The position numbers were made by a program, and so were the translations under genes. A stretch of DNA of 29,656 nucleotides from a virus, in IMG/VR virus record IMGVR_UViG_3300034104_001088, positions 1-29,656 of that record; one strand, written 5' to 3'. The notes below the pieces were generated by a model. It saw only the letters and a list, made by a program, of their open reading frames with translations, was not told the DNA's origin and searched no databases. This document shows positions 2,867 through 26,382 of the stretch, one piece after another; within the stretch, counting starts at the first letter, position 1; each line of letters begins with the position of its first letter.

Positions 2867-4084
2867 ATGAAGTTAGTAAACATATCGGACGTAAAGCCAA
2901 ACCCAAAGAACCCAAGAATAATAAAAGATGGAAAATTCCAAAAGTTAGTTAAATCTATCCAAGAGTTCCCTGATATGTTAAATAAACGCCCTCTAATCGT
3001 TTTTACTGACGTAGATGATAAATACGTTGTATTAGGCGGTAATATGCGTTTAAAAGCCTTAAATGAGCTAAAATTTAAAGAAATACCAATTATAGTAGCA
3101 GACGAATGGACGGAGGAACAGAAAAACGAATTTTTAATTAAAGATAATGTAGGTTTTGGAGAATGGGATTGGGATAGCTTAGCAAATGAATGGGACGCTG
3201 AAAAATTAGACGATTGGGGTTTGGATTTACCTATTGATTTACACGTTGTGGAATTAGAAGCCGAAGAAGATAATTACGAAATACCAAACGAAATTGAAAC
3301 CGATATTGTTTTAGGCGACTTATTCGAAATAGGCGAACACAGGTTACTTTGCGGGGATAGTACTTGCAGTGATACCGTTGCAAAGTTGATGAATGGAGAG
3401 AAAGCCGATATGGTGTTTACAGACCCTCCTTATAATATAGATTTCAAAGATGATAAAAACAGAAAAATACTAAATGATAATTTAGGCGAAGGTTTTGAAG
3501 AGTTTATTTGCGATATAGTCAATAATATAGTTTTATTTGTAGATAAAGGTGCAGTTTATATGTGTTTTTCACAAAGATTTATTTTAGACTATACAAAAGC
3601 AATAAAAGAAGCAAACATAAAAGATTATGATTTAATTATATGGTATAAAGATACGACAATGAGAATGGGAAAAGATTACAGAAATTATTACGAACCTATT
3701 TGGCTGTTGAGAATAAATGGGCCTGTTTTTTATGGAGAAAGAGAGTTTGAAAAAAATGTTTGGGAAATAAATTCAATACACTCAGCAGGTAGTAAAGATG
3801 ATAGTGGCAAATCTTGGTTTCAAGGAGGCAATAAAGATTTAACATTGCACCCAACACAAAAACCAATACAAGTACCAACAAAAGCAATAAATAATAGTTC
3901 AAAAGCAAATGATTTAATACTTGATTTATTTTTAGGTAGCGGCTCAACAATGGTAGCAGCACACCAACTAAAACGCAAATGTTATGGTACGGAATTAGAC
4001 CCGAAATACTGCCAAGTTATCATTGACCGTATGAAGAAACTTGACCCGAGTTTAGTTATTAAGAAGAACGGAGTTGAAATCTAA
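2867..4084 (+). CDS. ParB-like domain fused to DNA methyltransferase, 405 aa
   Basis: Residues 1-120 form a ParB/Srx-like domain (ISDVKPNPKNPR, then VVLGGNMRLKALNEL around 54-68). The rest is an S-adenosylmethionine-dependent DNA methylase. TDPPYNI at 185-191 is the catalytic motif IV and LDLFLGSGST near 352-361 is the SAM-binding motif I. Motif IV before motif I is the beta-class order, used by N6-adenine or N4-cytosine enzymes. No restriction enzyme is nearby, so it is an orphan methylase, probably protecting phage DNA from host restriction or marking it for packaging. The central part is more AT-rich than both ends, suggesting exchange of the target-recognition region. Confidence 0.93.
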   Translation: MKLVNISDVKPNPKNPRIIKDGKFQKLVKSIQEFPDMLNKRPLIVFTDVDDKYVVLGGNMRLKALNELKFKEIPIIVADEWTEEQKNEFLIKDNVGFGEWDWDSLANEWDAEKLDDWGLDLPIDLHVVELEAEEDNYEIPNEIETDIVLGDLFEIGEHRLLCGDSTCSDTVAKLMNGEKADMVFTDPPYNIDFKDDKNRKILNDNLGEGFEEFICDIVNNIVLFVDKGAVYMCFSQRFILDYTKAIKEANIKDYDLIIWYKDTTMRMGKDYRNYYEPIWLLRINGPVFYGEREFEKNVWEINSIHSAGSKDDSGKSWFQGGNKDLTLHPTQKPIQVPTKAINNSSKANDLILDLFLGSGSTMVAAHQLKRKCYGTELDPKYCQVIIDRMKKLDPSLVIKKNGVEI

Positions 4085-4483: not shown

Positions 4484-5615
4484 CATATTCCAAAAAAACT
4501 TTAACGCACTTCAAAATAAAGAGGTGCGTTTTGTTATTAATGAGGGTGGCTCCCGTTCATCCAAAACTTATTCGCTTTGTCAATTACTAATCGTTTACGC
4601 TTTGCAAAATCCTCAAAAGGTAGTTAGCATCATTCGAAAAACATTTCCTGCTTTGCGTGCCACGGTAATGCGTGACTTCTTAGAAATCTTAAAAGACTTG
4701 GATATTTACTCACAGGAACGCCACAACAAGTCTGAACACATCTATACATTCGAAAATGGTTCGATAATAGAATTTTTTAGTGTTGATGATGAACAAAAGA
4801 TTAGAGGGCGTAAAAGGGACGTAGCATGGTGTAATGAAGCGAATGAACTTTATTACGATGACTTTACGCAATTGAATATGAGAACCGAGTTTAAATTGAT
4901 TTTTGATTACAACCCGTCCGAGTCTTCAAGTTGGTTATATGAGTTACCAAAAGACGAATCAATATTAATCAAGTCTACTTATCGTGACAATCCGTTTTTA
5001 CCTGAAAGCATTAAAAAACAAATCGAGGATTTAAAACGAACCGATGAAGCCTTATATCAAATATACGCACTTGGGGAGAAAGCAATAAGTAAAAGTAATA
5101 TATACTCAAATTGGACTTTCTTGAATCACAGGCCATCAAAGTTTGTTAACTATGTTTATGGTCTGGATTTTGGATATAACCATCCAACCGCGCTCGTTCG
5201 AGTTTATTGGGTAGATAACGACATTTTTATTGAAAAGGTAATTTACGAAAGCTACCTAACTACGACAAACCTAATCGACAAAATGAATCAGTTAGGCGTA
5301 GAAAAACACGTGACAATATTAGCTGACTACTCAAGACCTGAAATAATAGCAGAAATGAATAACGCGGGCTTTGATGTTCAAAACGCAAATAAGGTAGTTA
5401 AAAAAGGAATTGATAACATCAAAACATTTGGGGTATTTTGCGAGGACAGCAAAGAAATTAAAAAGGAATATGATAACTACAAATGGAAAAAAGTTGGTGA
5501 CATAATCACGGACGAACCTATCAAATTATTTGATGATGCAATGGATGCGATTCGTTACGCGGTTACTCATATTAGACAAGAATATTACACGGATGATTCA
5601 TACTTTGCCTTCTAA
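4464..5615 (+). CDS. terL: Terminase large subunit, 383 aa
   Basis: This is the ATP-driven packaging motor and nuclease that fills proheads through the portal. The Walker A-like loop is GGSRSSKT (28-35) and the Walker B strand ends in NEAN (VAWCNEAN, 120-127). The C-terminal RNase H-like nuclease carries acidic residues in YGLDFGYNHP (Asp235), ILADYS (Asp288) and FDDAMDAIRYA (Asp361 region). Length is somewhat short but normal for this family of Bacteroidetes and Firmicutes phages. The start at 4464 lies inside the small-subunit gene in another frame. All expected catalytic positions are present. Confidence 0.96.
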   Translation: MEIKATNIFQKNFNALQNKEVRFVINEGGSRSSKTYSLCQLLIVYALQNPQKVVSIIRKTFPALRATVMRDFLEILKDLDIYSQERHNKSEHIYTFENGSIIEFFSVDDEQKIRGRKRDVAWCNEANELYYDDFTQLNMRTEFKLIFDYNPSESSSWLYELPKDESILIKSTYRDNPFLPESIKKQIEDLKRTDEALYQIYALGEKAISKSNIYSNWTFLNHRPSKFVNYVYGLDFGYNHPTALVRVYWVDNDIFIEKVIYESYLTTTNLIDKMNQLGVEKHVTILADYSRPEIIAEMNNAGFDVQNANKVVKKGIDNIKTFGVFCEDSKEIKKEYDNYKWKKVGDIITDEPIKLFDDAMDAIRYAVTHIRQEYYTDDSYFAF

Positions 5616-15371: not shown

Positions 15372-15785
15372 ATGCCAGATAAAGAATTTAAGTTAAAATA
15401 CAAAATAAGAAATAAAGCTGCGCAGGTATTAAAACGAGTTATTAAAGAGGATGCGTTAATAGATACTGGAACGCTTTACGAATCAATACGTATCAATGCT
15501 AAATTTACTACGGATGGCAATTTAAGAATTGAAATTTTGGCAGCTTATTACTTTGGTTTCTTGAATAACGGAACTATAAGTATCGAACCGTATCATTTAG
15601 TAAAACAGTTTAACAAACGTCTTGAAATGGACGGCATCATATCGGAAATGTATGCGCAATACATTGAATGGCTTTCGAGCAAATATCCACTTGTCCAAGT
15701 TGCGGGAATGTTACGTAAAAAACAACGTGTTATTTATGATTTCAATCCGTTATTTGGTGAGTTTTGGGCGGCGTTGGAATATTAG
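15372..15785 (+). CDS. HK97-gp10-like neck/head-tail joining protein, 137 aa
   Basis: Early in the protein, LIDTGTLYESIRI followed by AAYYFGFLNNGT is the pattern of the HK97 gp10 family (a DTG-L--S motif, later an Y--F---GT block). These proteins sit at the head-tail joint or act as tail completion factors. The gene ends in a 4-base overlap with the stop of the convergent minus-strand gene at 15782, with no terminator between. Assignment to the family is fairly sure; the exact role in the neck is not. Confidence 0.75.
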   Translation: MPDKEFKLKYKIRNKAAQVLKRVIKEDALIDTGTLYESIRINAKFTTDGNLRIEILAAYYFGFLNNGTISIEPYHLVKQFNKRLEMDGIISEMYAQYIEWLSSKYPLVQVAGMLRKKQRVIYDFNPLFGEFWAALEY

Positions 15786-16522
15786 ACGTTCAATTCTTTT
15801 TTCATTCCTAAAAAATTAAATACCAAAATCAAGGGTAATTCACAAACGGCGTTAAACTTTGTTAAGTCTTCATTGCATAGGTGCCAAATGAGTTGCTCCC
15901 ACGCCCATTTCTTTTGTTTCTTTTCCTCTTCGACGGTTTTTAAATCTTCAGCGTCCATGTTTTGGTCAACTTCAAAATCGTCTTCATAACTTTCAATCAT
16001 TAAATTTTTATATTGGTCAATAATACCCTCTCGAAATTTTATATATTCAGGAAGCAAGCCGTAAACTTCAGTAATTGGAAAATCTAAAAACCAATCTAAA
16101 CGGTCATTTGAATTGAAATTATAAGGTTCAAGTATTTCATCGTCCCACTCATTAACACGGACACGCCTGTAAAGTATTGCAATAATATTTAAAAGCTTTT
16201 CAATGTAGTTATCTGAGAAATATGCTTCTAAACTTATAAATTCGCCAAGCGTTATTTTATTAAAAGGCTTTAATGTAAAGTTACCTATCTTTTTATTGTA
16301 GTTTTTTGGCGGTTCATCGCGAATAAATTTAACCTCTATTAATAGTTCGTCAAGTTCTTCAATTGCTAAATGGTCCAAATCTTCTGGATAGCAATCTAAA
16401 AGCGTGCAAAGAACGTCTATTTGATAATTGAAAACGCCTTCATCCTGTGACAAAGTGCGCAGTTCAATAAAGGATTCAATCGTTATTTGATTCCACGCTT
16501 TCGGAAGCTTGTTTTTCAGCAT
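15782..16522 (-). CDS. Probable tail assembly chaperone, second frame, 246 aa
   Basis: Encoded on the minus strand, unlike almost the whole genome. The N-terminus (KAWNQITIESFIELRTLSQD) and a later segment (FNKITLGEFISLEAY, near residue 88) repeat the same pattern, NxITIxxF, which also begins the neighbouring 180-aa protein, so the two look related. The acidic, helical C-terminus ends in a Trp/Lys-rich stretch. Genes of this kind lie next to tape measure genes and are often joined by frameshifting (G/GT type). It overlaps the 180-aa gene by 47 bases in another frame and converges on the gp10-like gene. Confidence 0.7.
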   Translation of the reverse strand: MLKNKLPKAWNQITIESFIELRTLSQDEGVFNYQIDVLCTLLDCYPEDLDHLAIEELDELLIEVKFIRDEPPKNYNKKIGNFTLKPFNKITLGEFISLEAYFSDNYIEKLLNIIAILYRRVRVNEWDDEILEPYNFNSNDRLDWFLDFPITEVYGLLPEYIKFREGIIDQYKNLMIESYEDDFEVDQNMDAEDLKTVEEEKKQKKWAWEQLIWHLCNEDLTKFNAVCELPLILVFNFLGMKKELNV

Positions 16523-17018
16523 GGTTTGATATAGTTTCTGTTACAAATGTAATGTAAGGTATTGCAATTTCTGCGGGTTGCGTTCTAAATAACTTTGCTT
16601 TGTGCTTCAAATGTGCTGAATCGTAATGTTCAGCGTTACTCAAATCGGTTCTTTTAAACATCAAAGCCATAATATCGGACACGCTATGTTTGTTTTCTTT
16701 GACAATCATTTTTTCGATTAGTTTAGTATCCTTAACAGATAGCTTAAATTCAGCTTTGTAAGTAAATCCGTCAATGTCTATTACGCTAATTGGATTTTTT
16801 TTATCGTAATTATCTGTATTAAATTCTTTTGTCTTTTCAACAAAGTATTTAAAGTCGTCCCATTCGTCCTCTTCGACTCCTACAACTTCAAAAACCTTAA
16901 TTTGTTTTTCTATATTGTCAAGCTCTTTGTCGTTATGAATTGCAGAAATTTTTTCGAATTCATCAATAGTTATTTCGTTCATTTTGTTGGCAATGTTACG
17001 CCCAAATACTTCAATCAT
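16476..17018 (-). CDS. Probable tail assembly chaperone, first frame, 180 aa
   Basis: First gene of the minus-strand pair. NEITIDEFEKISAIHNDKEL near residues 14-33 has the same NxITIxxF start pattern as the 246-aa protein, and the rest is helical and charged. The start is either ATG at 17018 or the internal Met13 (16982); the promoter at 17035-17042 leaves only a very short leader for the first. It would act during tail assembly by binding the tape measure before tube polymerisation. An alternative is that both are unrelated regulators, but position and paired out-of-frame overlap favour chaperones. Confidence 0.7.
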   Translation of the reverse strand: MIEVFGRNIANKMNEITIDEFEKISAIHNDKELDNIEKQIKVFEVVGVEEDEWDDFKYFVEKTKEFNTDNYDKKNPISVIDIDGFTYKAEFKLSVKDTKLIEKMIVKENKHSVSDIMALMFKRTDLSNAEHYDSAHLKHKAKLFRTQPAEIAIPYITFVTETISNHAEKQASESVESNND

Positions 17019-24416: not shown

Positions 24417-24520
24417 AAATTTATAGCGCATATCAAAAGATCCAATATCGTAAAATAAAACGATGGCATATTAAAATGAATATTCAAGAAAATTTTTATA
24501 AGAATTTTGAGTTTGATTAA
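24413..24520 (+). CDS. Hypothetical basic peptide, 35 aa
   Basis: ATG at 24413 overlaps the previous stop (ATGA). Basic and aromatic: MKIYSAYQKIQYRKIKRWHI, ending FYKNFEFD. Its last codons contain the probable -33 TTTG of the next promoter. It could be a real small gene or a coupled chance frame; the overlap style favours the former. Confidence 0.5.
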   Translation: MKIYSAYQKIQYRKIKRWHIKMNIQENFYKNFEFD

Positions 24521-24539
24521 AAAATAATTAGTATATTTG
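24512..24539 (+). promoter_or_regulatory. Promoter of the replication operon leader
   Basis: TATATTTG at 24532-24539, with TTTG at 24512-24515 (16-base gap) or TTTTG at 24505-24509 (22-base gap) as the -33 element. Transcription would start near 24544-24548, just before the structured leader. Confidence 0.65.
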
Positions 24540-24544
24540 TAAAC

Positions 24545-24635
24545 GGTTTGGCTTCACACTATAAAACCTAAAGATGTTATTGAACCTCTTAATGAATTTG
24601 GACGTGAAGCCCCAAAGGATTTAAGGGGTTTTTTT
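24545..24635 (+). ncRNA. Structured leader or small RNA with attenuator layout
   Basis: Between the promoter and a terminator lies a region with an exact 8-bp inverted repeat, GGCTTCAC (24550-24557) and GTGAAGCC (24604-24611). Its right arm shares two C residues with the terminator stem that follows. Inside the loop a 16-codon frame at 24574-24624 (MLLNLLMNLDVKPQRI) begins Leu-rich and ends within the terminator loop. This is the layout of a transcription attenuator with leader peptide, placed before the replication operon. A stand-alone small RNA of about 90 nt is the other reading. Confidence 0.5.
24610..24635 (+). terminator. Terminator ahead of the replication operon
   Basis: CCCC (24610-24613) pairs with GGGG (24625-24628), and the stem can extend outward through GAAG against the T run. 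Seven T follow the last G. Genes start again at 24657 with no new promoter seen in the gap, so read-through must be allowed. Confidence 0.75.
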
Positions 24636-24656
24636 ATTTATTTTAAATTTTATAAA

Positions 24657-24809
24657 ATGAAAAGTGTTTATTATTTAATTGAAATTACAAAACATCATTC
24701 CAAAGCAAACGATATTTATTGGTATTCAGTTATTTATTCTAATGGGTTAGAGTTAATTGATAAAGAATATACGATTGGAGAATCAATTCCTACAATTGTT
24801 TTAAAATGA
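24657..24809 (+). CDS. Hypothetical protein, 50 aa
   Basis: MKSVYYLIEITKHHSKANDI opens a small beta-rich frame (YWYSVIYSNGLELIDKEYTI). Its stop overlaps the start of the replication initiator as ATGA, strong support that it is translated. First gene after the structured leader. No family was recognised. Confidence 0.65.
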   Translation: MKSVYYLIEITKHHSKANDIYWYSVIYSNGLELIDKEYTIGESIPTIVLK

Positions 24810-25441
24810 GTGGATGGATTAAAATACATCGCAAGTTTTTAGACTGGGAGTGGTTTAATAAAAGCGAAGCAGTTCATCTGTTTATGTATTTAGTTTTAAA
24901 AGCCAACTATAAAGATGGACAATGGCAAGGAATTGATATTAAAAAAGGTCAATTTGTTACGTCTTTCGGTAAGATTTCAACCGATACAGGAATCAGTTTA
25001 CAAACGATTAGAACGCTTTTAAAAAAGTTTGAAAAATCAAATGAAATTAACATACAAACAACAAACAAATATAGTGTTGTAACTATCTGTAAATATGAAT
25101 GTTACCAAAAAGAAACTGAAACAACTAACGAGCAACTAACAAACAAACAACAATCAGCTAACAATCAACTAACAACAAACAAGAATGATAAGAATGATAA
25201 AGAAATATTATTAGACACTTGGGTTGAATATCGTAAGCAAATTAGAAAGCCAATTAAACAAGCTACGATTGAAGTAATTTACAAAAAGATGTTAGAACAT
25301 ACATTTGAAGATTGTAAGTTTGTAATTGATAATTCTATTGAGAATGGTTGGCAAGGTTTATTTTGGGATAAGATACCTACGAAACAACAATATGAAATAG
25401 ACCCATTAGTAGAATACGTTAACAAACAACTTGGATTATGA
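24806..25441 (+). CDS. Replication initiator / DnaD-like protein, 211 aa
   Basis: Residues 1-100 form a winged-helix domain of the phage replication-protein type: SGWIKIHRKFLDWEWFNKSE, LKANYKDGQWQGIDIKKGQF, SFGKISTDTGISLQTIRTLL. A Gln/Asn/Thr-rich linker (105-132) holds the DNA iteron array. The C-terminal part (133-211, LDTWVEYRKQIRKPIKQATI, NGWQGLFW) resembles DnaD/DnaB-II domains that load helicase. It overlaps the helicase gene as ATGA. It would bind the origin, probably within its own gene, and recruit the helicase encoded next. Confidence 0.85.
   Translation: MSGWIKIHRKFLDWEWFNKSEAVHLFMYLVLKANYKDGQWQGIDIKKGQFVTSFGKISTDTGISLQTIRTLLKKFEKSNEINIQTTNKYSVVTICKYECYQKETETTNEQLTNKQQSANNQLTTNKNDKNDKEILLDTWVEYRKQIRKPIKQATIEVIYKKMLEHTFEDCKFVIDNSIENGWQGLFWDKIPTKQQYEIDPLVEYVNKQLGL
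25122..25176. repeat. Five 11-bp iterons, probable replication origin
   Basis: Units start at 25122, 25133, 25144, 25155 and 25166, each 11 bp, with consensus CAACTAACAAN (the third unit is the most divergent: CAAACAACAAT). An 11-bp period places all units on nearly the same DNA face. A short tandem repeat of AGAATGATA and an AT-rich stretch follow at 25182-25220. Iterons inside the initiator gene are known from lambda gene O. An origin here is inferred. Confidence 0.65.
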
Positions 25442-26382
25442 AAGGAGATGCTACTCAATACCTACTTGACTATAAACACGGAAAAATTAAAAAGGGTTAT
25501 GGAATAGATTGCTTTTTAGACAACCATCTTAGATTTAAACGCAAACAGCTTAATATAATTTTAGGACATGACAACGTAGGTAAGACTTACTGGATAAATT
25601 GGTATTTCTTGACATTGGCAATAAAACACGAATTGAAGTTTTGTATCTGGAGCGGTGAAAATCAAAAAGGGCAAATCTTGCGTGACATGATTCAAATGTA
25701 TTTAGGGCAAAAGTTTACTGAAATTGAAGATTCAAAGATATTAAGCACGGCAACATTTTTAGAACAGTATTTCGACTTTATTCCAAACGACAAACTTTAT
25801 AAACCTACTGAACTTTTAAAGCTATTTAAGGAAAGCGAATGCGATGCAGCATTAATTGACCCTTTTACTGGATTAGATAGGGCTATGAATTTCGAAGGCA
25901 ACTATCAATTTTTGAATGAAGCACGGCAATTTGTTAACGAATCAGGAATAACAATTTACATAAACACGCACCCAAATAGCGAAAGTGGTCGAAGTGGTAA
26001 TTTATACGGTGAAAATCATATGTGGAAAGGTCATCTGAAACCCCCATTGAAAGACCACGTTGAGGGTGGAAAGGCTTTTTTAAATAGATGCGATGATATG
26101 TTTGTAATTCATAGGCTAATAAAACACGAATCAATGAAGTATTACACTATGGTAAACGTTGAAAAGATTAAAGACTTAGACACTGGTGGAATGCACACGA
26201 GATTAGATGAACCGATACTTTGTGAATTTAACAACGGATTAGGATTTAAAATTAATTCAGTTGATCCGATCAGAAACACGAAACCAATATCAAATAGTTT
26301 TCCAACTTCGAAACCCGATATAGTAAACGGAAAAGAATTACTTTCGTTTAGCGAAAAGATGAAAAAAGATGTTCCTTTTTGA
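25438..26382 (+). CDS. DnaB-like replicative helicase (RecA fold), 314 aa
   Basis: A RecA-type ATPase core without the DnaB N-terminal domain. Walker A is GHDNVGKT (43-50), a catalytic-type SGEN follows at 72-75, Walker B is ALIDP (138-142, Asp141), and YINTHPN (174-180) fits motif III. KGGKAFLNRCDD-like sequence near 210 fits the arginine-finger or loop region. The C-terminus is Pro/Ser-rich. It follows the initiator gene by ATGA overlap, the normal loader-helicase order. Shorter than host DnaB (about 450-500 aa), like other phage forms. Role: unwinding the phage replication fork. Confidence 0.88.
   Translation: MKGDATQYLLDYKHGKIKKGYGIDCFLDNHLRFKRKQLNIILGHDNVGKTYWINWYFLTLAIKHELKFCIWSGENQKGQILRDMIQMYLGQKFTEIEDSKILSTATFLEQYFDFIPNDKLYKPTELLKLFKESECDAALIDPFTGLDRAMNFEGNYQFLNEARQFVNESGITIYINTHPNSESGRSGNLYGENHMWKGHLKPPLKDHVEGGKAFLNRCDDMFVIHRLIKHESMKYYTMVNVEKIKDLDTGGMHTRLDEPILCEFNNGLGFKINSVDPIRNTKPISNSFPTSKPDIVNGKELLSFSEKMKKDVPF

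Follow-up and report, generated by a model that had tools for sequence, protein, structure and literature searches.

The window analysed here, the whole stretch of DNA of a virus record, is 29,656 bases long. Structural and small genes lie upstream of the leader described below, and a replication operon lies downstream of it on the plus strand. The first gene of the operon (24657-24809) encodes 50 amino acids with no assigned function, and this first gene differs among phages. It is followed by a replication initiator/DnaD-like helicase loader (24806-25441; PHROG 2514, E 9e-32) and a primase/helicase-like gene (25438-26382; PHROG 18375, E 6e-20), and the further genes of the operon are NinG, ERF, and an exonuclease. 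Elsewhere in the window, one protein (2867-4084) joins a ParB-like domain with a DNA methyltransferase (PHROG 498 and ParB-like PHROGs), and two overlapping genes at 15782-17018 are on the minus strand, while the rest of the phage genome is plus-strand.

Comparison of relatives identifies 24545-24635 as a structured RNA that lies upstream of replication operons in Bacteroidota viruses. All of its parts are on the plus strand. A Bacteroidetes-type promoter -7 box, TATATTTG (TAnnTTTG), is located at 24532-24539 and is conserved upstream of the first kissing arm. Hairpin P1 pairs GGTTT (24545-24549) with AAACC (24564-24568), approximately at the predicted transcript start, and its loop carries the kissing arm K, GGCTTCAC (24550-24557). 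The second hairpin begins with the 5' strand of the terminator stem P2, GAACCTCTTAA (24582-24592), and continues with an internal loop in which UGAA (24593-24596) faces GGAU (24617-24620) and with an inner stem P3 of TTTGG (24597-24601) and CCAAA (24612-24616). The loop of P3, which is the apical loop of the terminator hairpin, holds the second arm K', GTGAAGCC (24604-24611). The 3' strand of P2, TTAAGGGGTTT (24621-24631), runs into a U-tract (24629-24635), giving a predicted intrinsic terminator (24621-24635). A small reading frame of 16 codons, MLLNLLMNLDVKPQRI, overlaps this hairpin at 24574-24624.

A preliminary description of the window had proposed an attenuator-like leader, and much of its anatomy stood. 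The promoter, the T-run, and a terminator are present, the two arms form an exact 8-bp inverted repeat 46 nt apart, and no promoter motif occurs between the T-run and the gene at 24657, so that a leader with a terminator does lie between the sole recognisable promoter and the replication operon. The terminator stem, however, is not CCCC/GGGG but the covarying P2, and the two C residues adjoining the right arm pair with the GG of P3, not within the terminator stem. The stem of P1 had been overlooked. In the window alone, one G+C-rich 8-bp inverted repeat at such spacing was found against 0.63 expected; the repeat by itself is no rarer than chance, and the comparative evidence bears the finding.

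Comparative evidence for the fold

Relatives were collected by a pattern scan and from loci reached through the neighbouring replication genes. A model derived from the first 16 sequences matched 76 places in 83 sources, namely the window and loci that had mostly been retrieved via adjacent genes, and the arm sequences were quite different among these 76 matches. The fold was tested on 85 distinct aligned sequences (alignment columns: P1, 3-7/29-33; K, 8-11 and 16-19/80-87; P2, 56-66/99-109; P3, 73-77/88-92). In the full structure of 29 pairs, 98.2% of cells were paired, and double changes occurred in 26 of the 29 pairs. The double-change cells numbered 632, whereas shuffled controls gave 162 and slid controls no more than 86. 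Covariation was present in each helix. Both sides had changed in 5/5 pairs of P1, 11/11 of P2, and 4/5 of P3, with 99.3%, 98.6%, and 99.4% of cells paired, respectively, and 6 of the 8 pairs between the arms covaried. Compensatory changes in 24550-24557/24604-24611, which the preliminary description had named as a supporting sign, were thus looked for in relatives and are decisively present. Because the model to which the alignment was fitted contained P1, P2, and P3 but left out K, the kissing helix is an independent test.

The arms were complementary in 51 of 51 distinct full-length members, which carried 21 arm-pair versions and had been selected through gene homology and the model, independently of arm sequence; when the right arms were re-dealt among these members, pairing fell to 67%. 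A structure-blind covariation analysis placed its top 19 pairs all within P1, K, P2, or P3. The alignment therefore shows a conserved fold consisting of hairpin P1, hairpin P2/P3, and an 8-bp kissing helix predicted to join their loops. The nested energy model is unable to draw K together with P1; for a transcript ending just 5' of the terminator's 3' strand, it makes K the favoured helix, at -15.7 kcal/mol. Among unpaired bases, conservation extends to an A and the triplet AUA of the first loop, to UUAUU of the linker, and to UGAA facing GGAU between P2 and P3, with UGA in all weighted sequences and GGAU at 83-100%. The first four columns of the U-tract were 91-100% conserved.

The preliminary description had considered that ribosome movement over the Leu-rich peptide controls the operon. 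The 16-codon frame does exist in the window and overlaps the terminator, but a homologous ATG was found in only 7 of the 85 distinct relatives, neither start codon nor frame is conserved, and no alternative helix is conserved either, so we consider ribosome-coupled attenuation highly improbable. The classical two-state attenuator likewise found no support: since the structure-blind analysis of the 85 distinct sequences yielded the P1, K, P2, and P3 helices and no further conserved helix, no mutually exclusive antiterminator is conserved. As for regulation by a ligand or protein, the conserved unpaired AUA, UUAUU, and UGAA/GGAU would fit it. Of the features of a riboswitch, conserved unpaired bases and a terminator were seen in the 5' leader, and no alternative state was seen.

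Distribution and genomic setting

At a score of 17 or more, a descriptor composed of the promoter, P1, kissing arm, P3, P2, and U-tract had at least 332 matches, versus 1 in reversed sequence. These represent at least 218 distinct instances and at least 32 arm versions; one instance, L504:3049, is not followed by a gene and is possibly a chance match. The structured RNA was thus recorded at no fewer than 218 distinct phage loci, in 3 Bacteroidota genomes, and in the cultured phages 11b, phi19:3, and phi13:2. Flavobacterium phage 11b (NC_006356.2, 33621-33737) has the same layout with arms CGGGCAGG/CCTGCCCG upstream of PHG11b_62/63, and Cellulophaga phages phi19:3 and phi13:2 have it with arms CTCTCACAA/TTGTGAGAG ahead of the initiator homologues gp007 and gp006. 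These three were assigned by a looser descriptor and inspection, because the model score was weak at the phi19:3 site (21.3 bits, E 0.15) and the 11b site was unreported by the model. No convincing member was found in the stretches read of Riemerella phage GRNRAP2, Maribacter phage Panino, and Cellulophaga phage phi38:1.

Three chromosomal copies, each preceding phage-type or replication genes, were found in approximately 990 drawn Bacteroidota genomes (with some overlap between draws), and therefore we regard the element as a phage RNA and not a common host gene. In bacterial genomes near distant relatives of the initiator, no leader RNA reached significance.

Four of 30 phage records had no model match, and in one of these four the RNA is interrupted. 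At about 2820-4020 of L176, approximately 1.2 kb of other sequence separates the initiator from the upstream promoter and the RNA's first half (ACGCACTCCTTCGACATTA), and the terminator half of the RNA is absent. Other short promoter and terminator units (for example, TAGATTTG...GGGGGTCATTGACCCCTTTTTTT) occur in leaderless phages (L147 at about 4044, L176 at about 609) and are possibly further small RNAs. A shorter second subclass, whose P1 loop consists largely or entirely of the arm (as in GTAG-[GTTACGG]-CTAC), was noted at L300:951, L475:2714, L277:1780, L261:8476, L565:3955, and L318:4475, often upstream of HNH-endonuclease-like or replication genes.

In 101 of 102 distinct loci, the TAnnTTTG box lies 9-15 nt upstream of the kissing arm. 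Apart from it, promoter motifs of this type are rare in the 400 nt to either side; no antisense promoter motif is concentrated anywhere opposite the leader. A co-directional ORF follows the U-tract in 216 of the 218 loci listed, at a median of 19 nt (quartiles 17-20). The aligned loci thus show a promoter box at a near-fixed distance 5' of P1, a U-tract right after P2, and a gene about 19 nt further on with no recognisable promoter in between. The first genes of the operon fall into at least 33 clusters among the 216 loci listed, and several unrelated replication-initiator families lie downstream of leaders. Because the layout is near-constant while first genes and initiator families vary, the promoter, RNA, and ribosome-binding region are, as judged from these loci, one unit that travels ahead of replication operons. 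For the replication genes, the only visible promoter is usually the one upstream of a conserved terminator.

Being located where transcripts of replication operons are predicted to begin, the leader would also suit processive antitermination of the kind known from phage HK022, whose put RNA forms hairpins at the 5' ends of early transcripts. A leader of this kind would bind RNA polymerase and carry it past its own and later terminators. The two hairpins with conserved unpaired bases, the single fold, and the lack of an antiterminator helix agree with it. However, put sites are not known to need a U-tract, and the phage leader ends in a canonical, strongly conserved one; the leader appears to add a conserved intrinsic terminator and a kissing helix to the 5'-end hairpins that the two share. 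We consider this explanation unlikely.

Exchange of the kissing-arm versions

Near-identical neighbouring genes can be accompanied by different RNAs. In four pairs of phages (L148/L149, L163/L149, L191/L199, and L194/L192), RNA identity was 0.61-0.62 and that of the immediate flanks approximately 0.83-0.99, and the divergence starts and stops near the RNA borders. When the arm versions of 71 phages were placed on a tree of the neighbouring replication gene, the arm changed at least 47 times, compared with a minimum possible of 19 and approximately 54 for random labels; the count of 47 is approximate because the tree is short and many of its forks are weak. Exchange of this kind is not confined to the RNA: other parts of these phage genomes, above all those further upstream, are mosaic as well. 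Five phages (L272, L291, L475, L565, and L514) carry two leaders with differing arms. In L272 (leaders at 2947-3042 and 5321-5414) and L291 (1591-1685 and 3959-4046), one leader precedes an operon that includes a PAPS-reductase-like gene, whereas the other precedes the replication operon.

The kissing arm thus behaves like an exchangeable barcode as far as the sequences tell, and the near-random swapping of the pairing sequence among close relatives suggests selection for specificity. We tentatively consider, as a rather doubtful reading, that a few dozen exchangeable kissing-loop leaders, one per phage, make up an RNA barcode system; with the same reserve, the version would fix which other phages' replication operons the terminated RNA can silence or must not cross-pair with. 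If this were true, there would be RNA-based immunity groups among Bacteroidota phages.

The main rival is that the phage makes the terminated RNA of approximately 90 nt for its own sake, as a small RNA acting in trans, either for version-specific immunity or competition like the P4 CI RNA or as an anti-defence RNA, and that leaky read-through feeds the replication genes. The cassette-like swapping between similar flanks, the number of arm changes on the tree, and the different arms of two leaders within one phage all speak for it, and fast exchange of RNA versions is not needed by a plain cis attenuator, which keeps a trans or immunity role alive. There is also a precedent: the Gifsy-1 prophage small RNA IsrK has its own promoter and terminator with functional read-through into the downstream message, whose translation it activates in trans (PMC4825925). 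IsrK shares this layout with the phage leader, and we claim no kinship of sequence or fold; the activation in trans is a feature of IsrK, and for the phage leader the layout is known from sequence alone. Against a trans role, both arms are already engaged inside the same molecule, no second target for them was found in the phage genomes, where the arm 8-mers are essentially confined to the RNA itself (extra arm copies in G630 lie in unrelated contexts), and the usually promoterless co-directional gene that comes next would be needless for a free-standing small RNA. We give the trans-acting RNA the second place in likelihood, well behind a leader acting in cis.

Proposed action of the leader and its meaning

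We believe, with a probability of about 0.58, that the region 24545-24635 is the 5' leader RNA of the phage replication operon and limits read-through in cis; it probably sets the expression level of the replication genes. A promoter, a stem with a U-tract, and a promoterless gene next to it, as expected of a cis-acting leader with an intrinsic terminator, are all found at the sequence level. From these features we infer the start, termination, read-through, and control of transcription and the reason for the arm diversity. Transcription would start at P1, which would fold first as polymerase emerges, and the P1 loop would then pair with K' and align P3 and P2. Because P2 and the U-tract would act as an intrinsic terminator, most transcripts would end at approximately 90 nt and the replication genes would be reached via read-through only. 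The docked loop would set the efficiency of the terminator, either fixed or adjusted, and a host or phage factor might read the conserved unpaired bases or undo the docking. Inspection of protein families, with no statistical test, showed no phage protein limited to leader-bearing genomes. With no conserved antiterminator in the alignment, the leader may act as a brake that is fixed, not regulated. The exchangeable kissing sequences may prevent cross-pairing between the leaders of different phages, and the same exchange may keep apart two leaders within one phage.

Several known systems resemble this leader in part. The trp, leu, and his leaders have a terminator between promoter and operon, as the phage leader does, whereas the latter has no conserved peptide or antiterminator and instead has a loop-loop contact inside the terminator. 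In attenuation of the pT181 type, a terminator likewise lies in the leader of the replication initiator gene, but there is no concentrated antisense promoter motif opposite the phage leader. In phage P4, early termination occurs ahead of the replication genes, and the P4 CI and P1/P7 C4 RNAs (RF01695) are also phage RNAs whose base pairing is tied to operon control. The C4 model does not match the leader, however, and the leader's arms pair with each other inside a single RNA; the second target in the phage that a C4/CI-type antisense RNA would have was not found for them.

The covariance models of Rfam 15 had no match in the window at or above the gathering score, and matches at E<=10 were at chance level, far under the gathering scores. 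A DNA similarity search of phage records gave weak chance-level matches only. No description of the leader RNA was found in the open-access papers searched, where absence does not prove novelty, and a terminator with its apical loop docked on the first hairpin was found in none of the RNA libraries or papers searched. A survey of 104 candidate RNAs has Bacteroidetes and phage motifs, and the word "kissing" is absent from its text.

Gene timing in Bacteroidota phages seems little known, and no account of it was found in the papers searched. Three cultured phages carry the leader, which makes the question experimentally accessible. The leader's occurrence in hundreds of phages with unrelated initiators suggests a control step of general use as replication begins.
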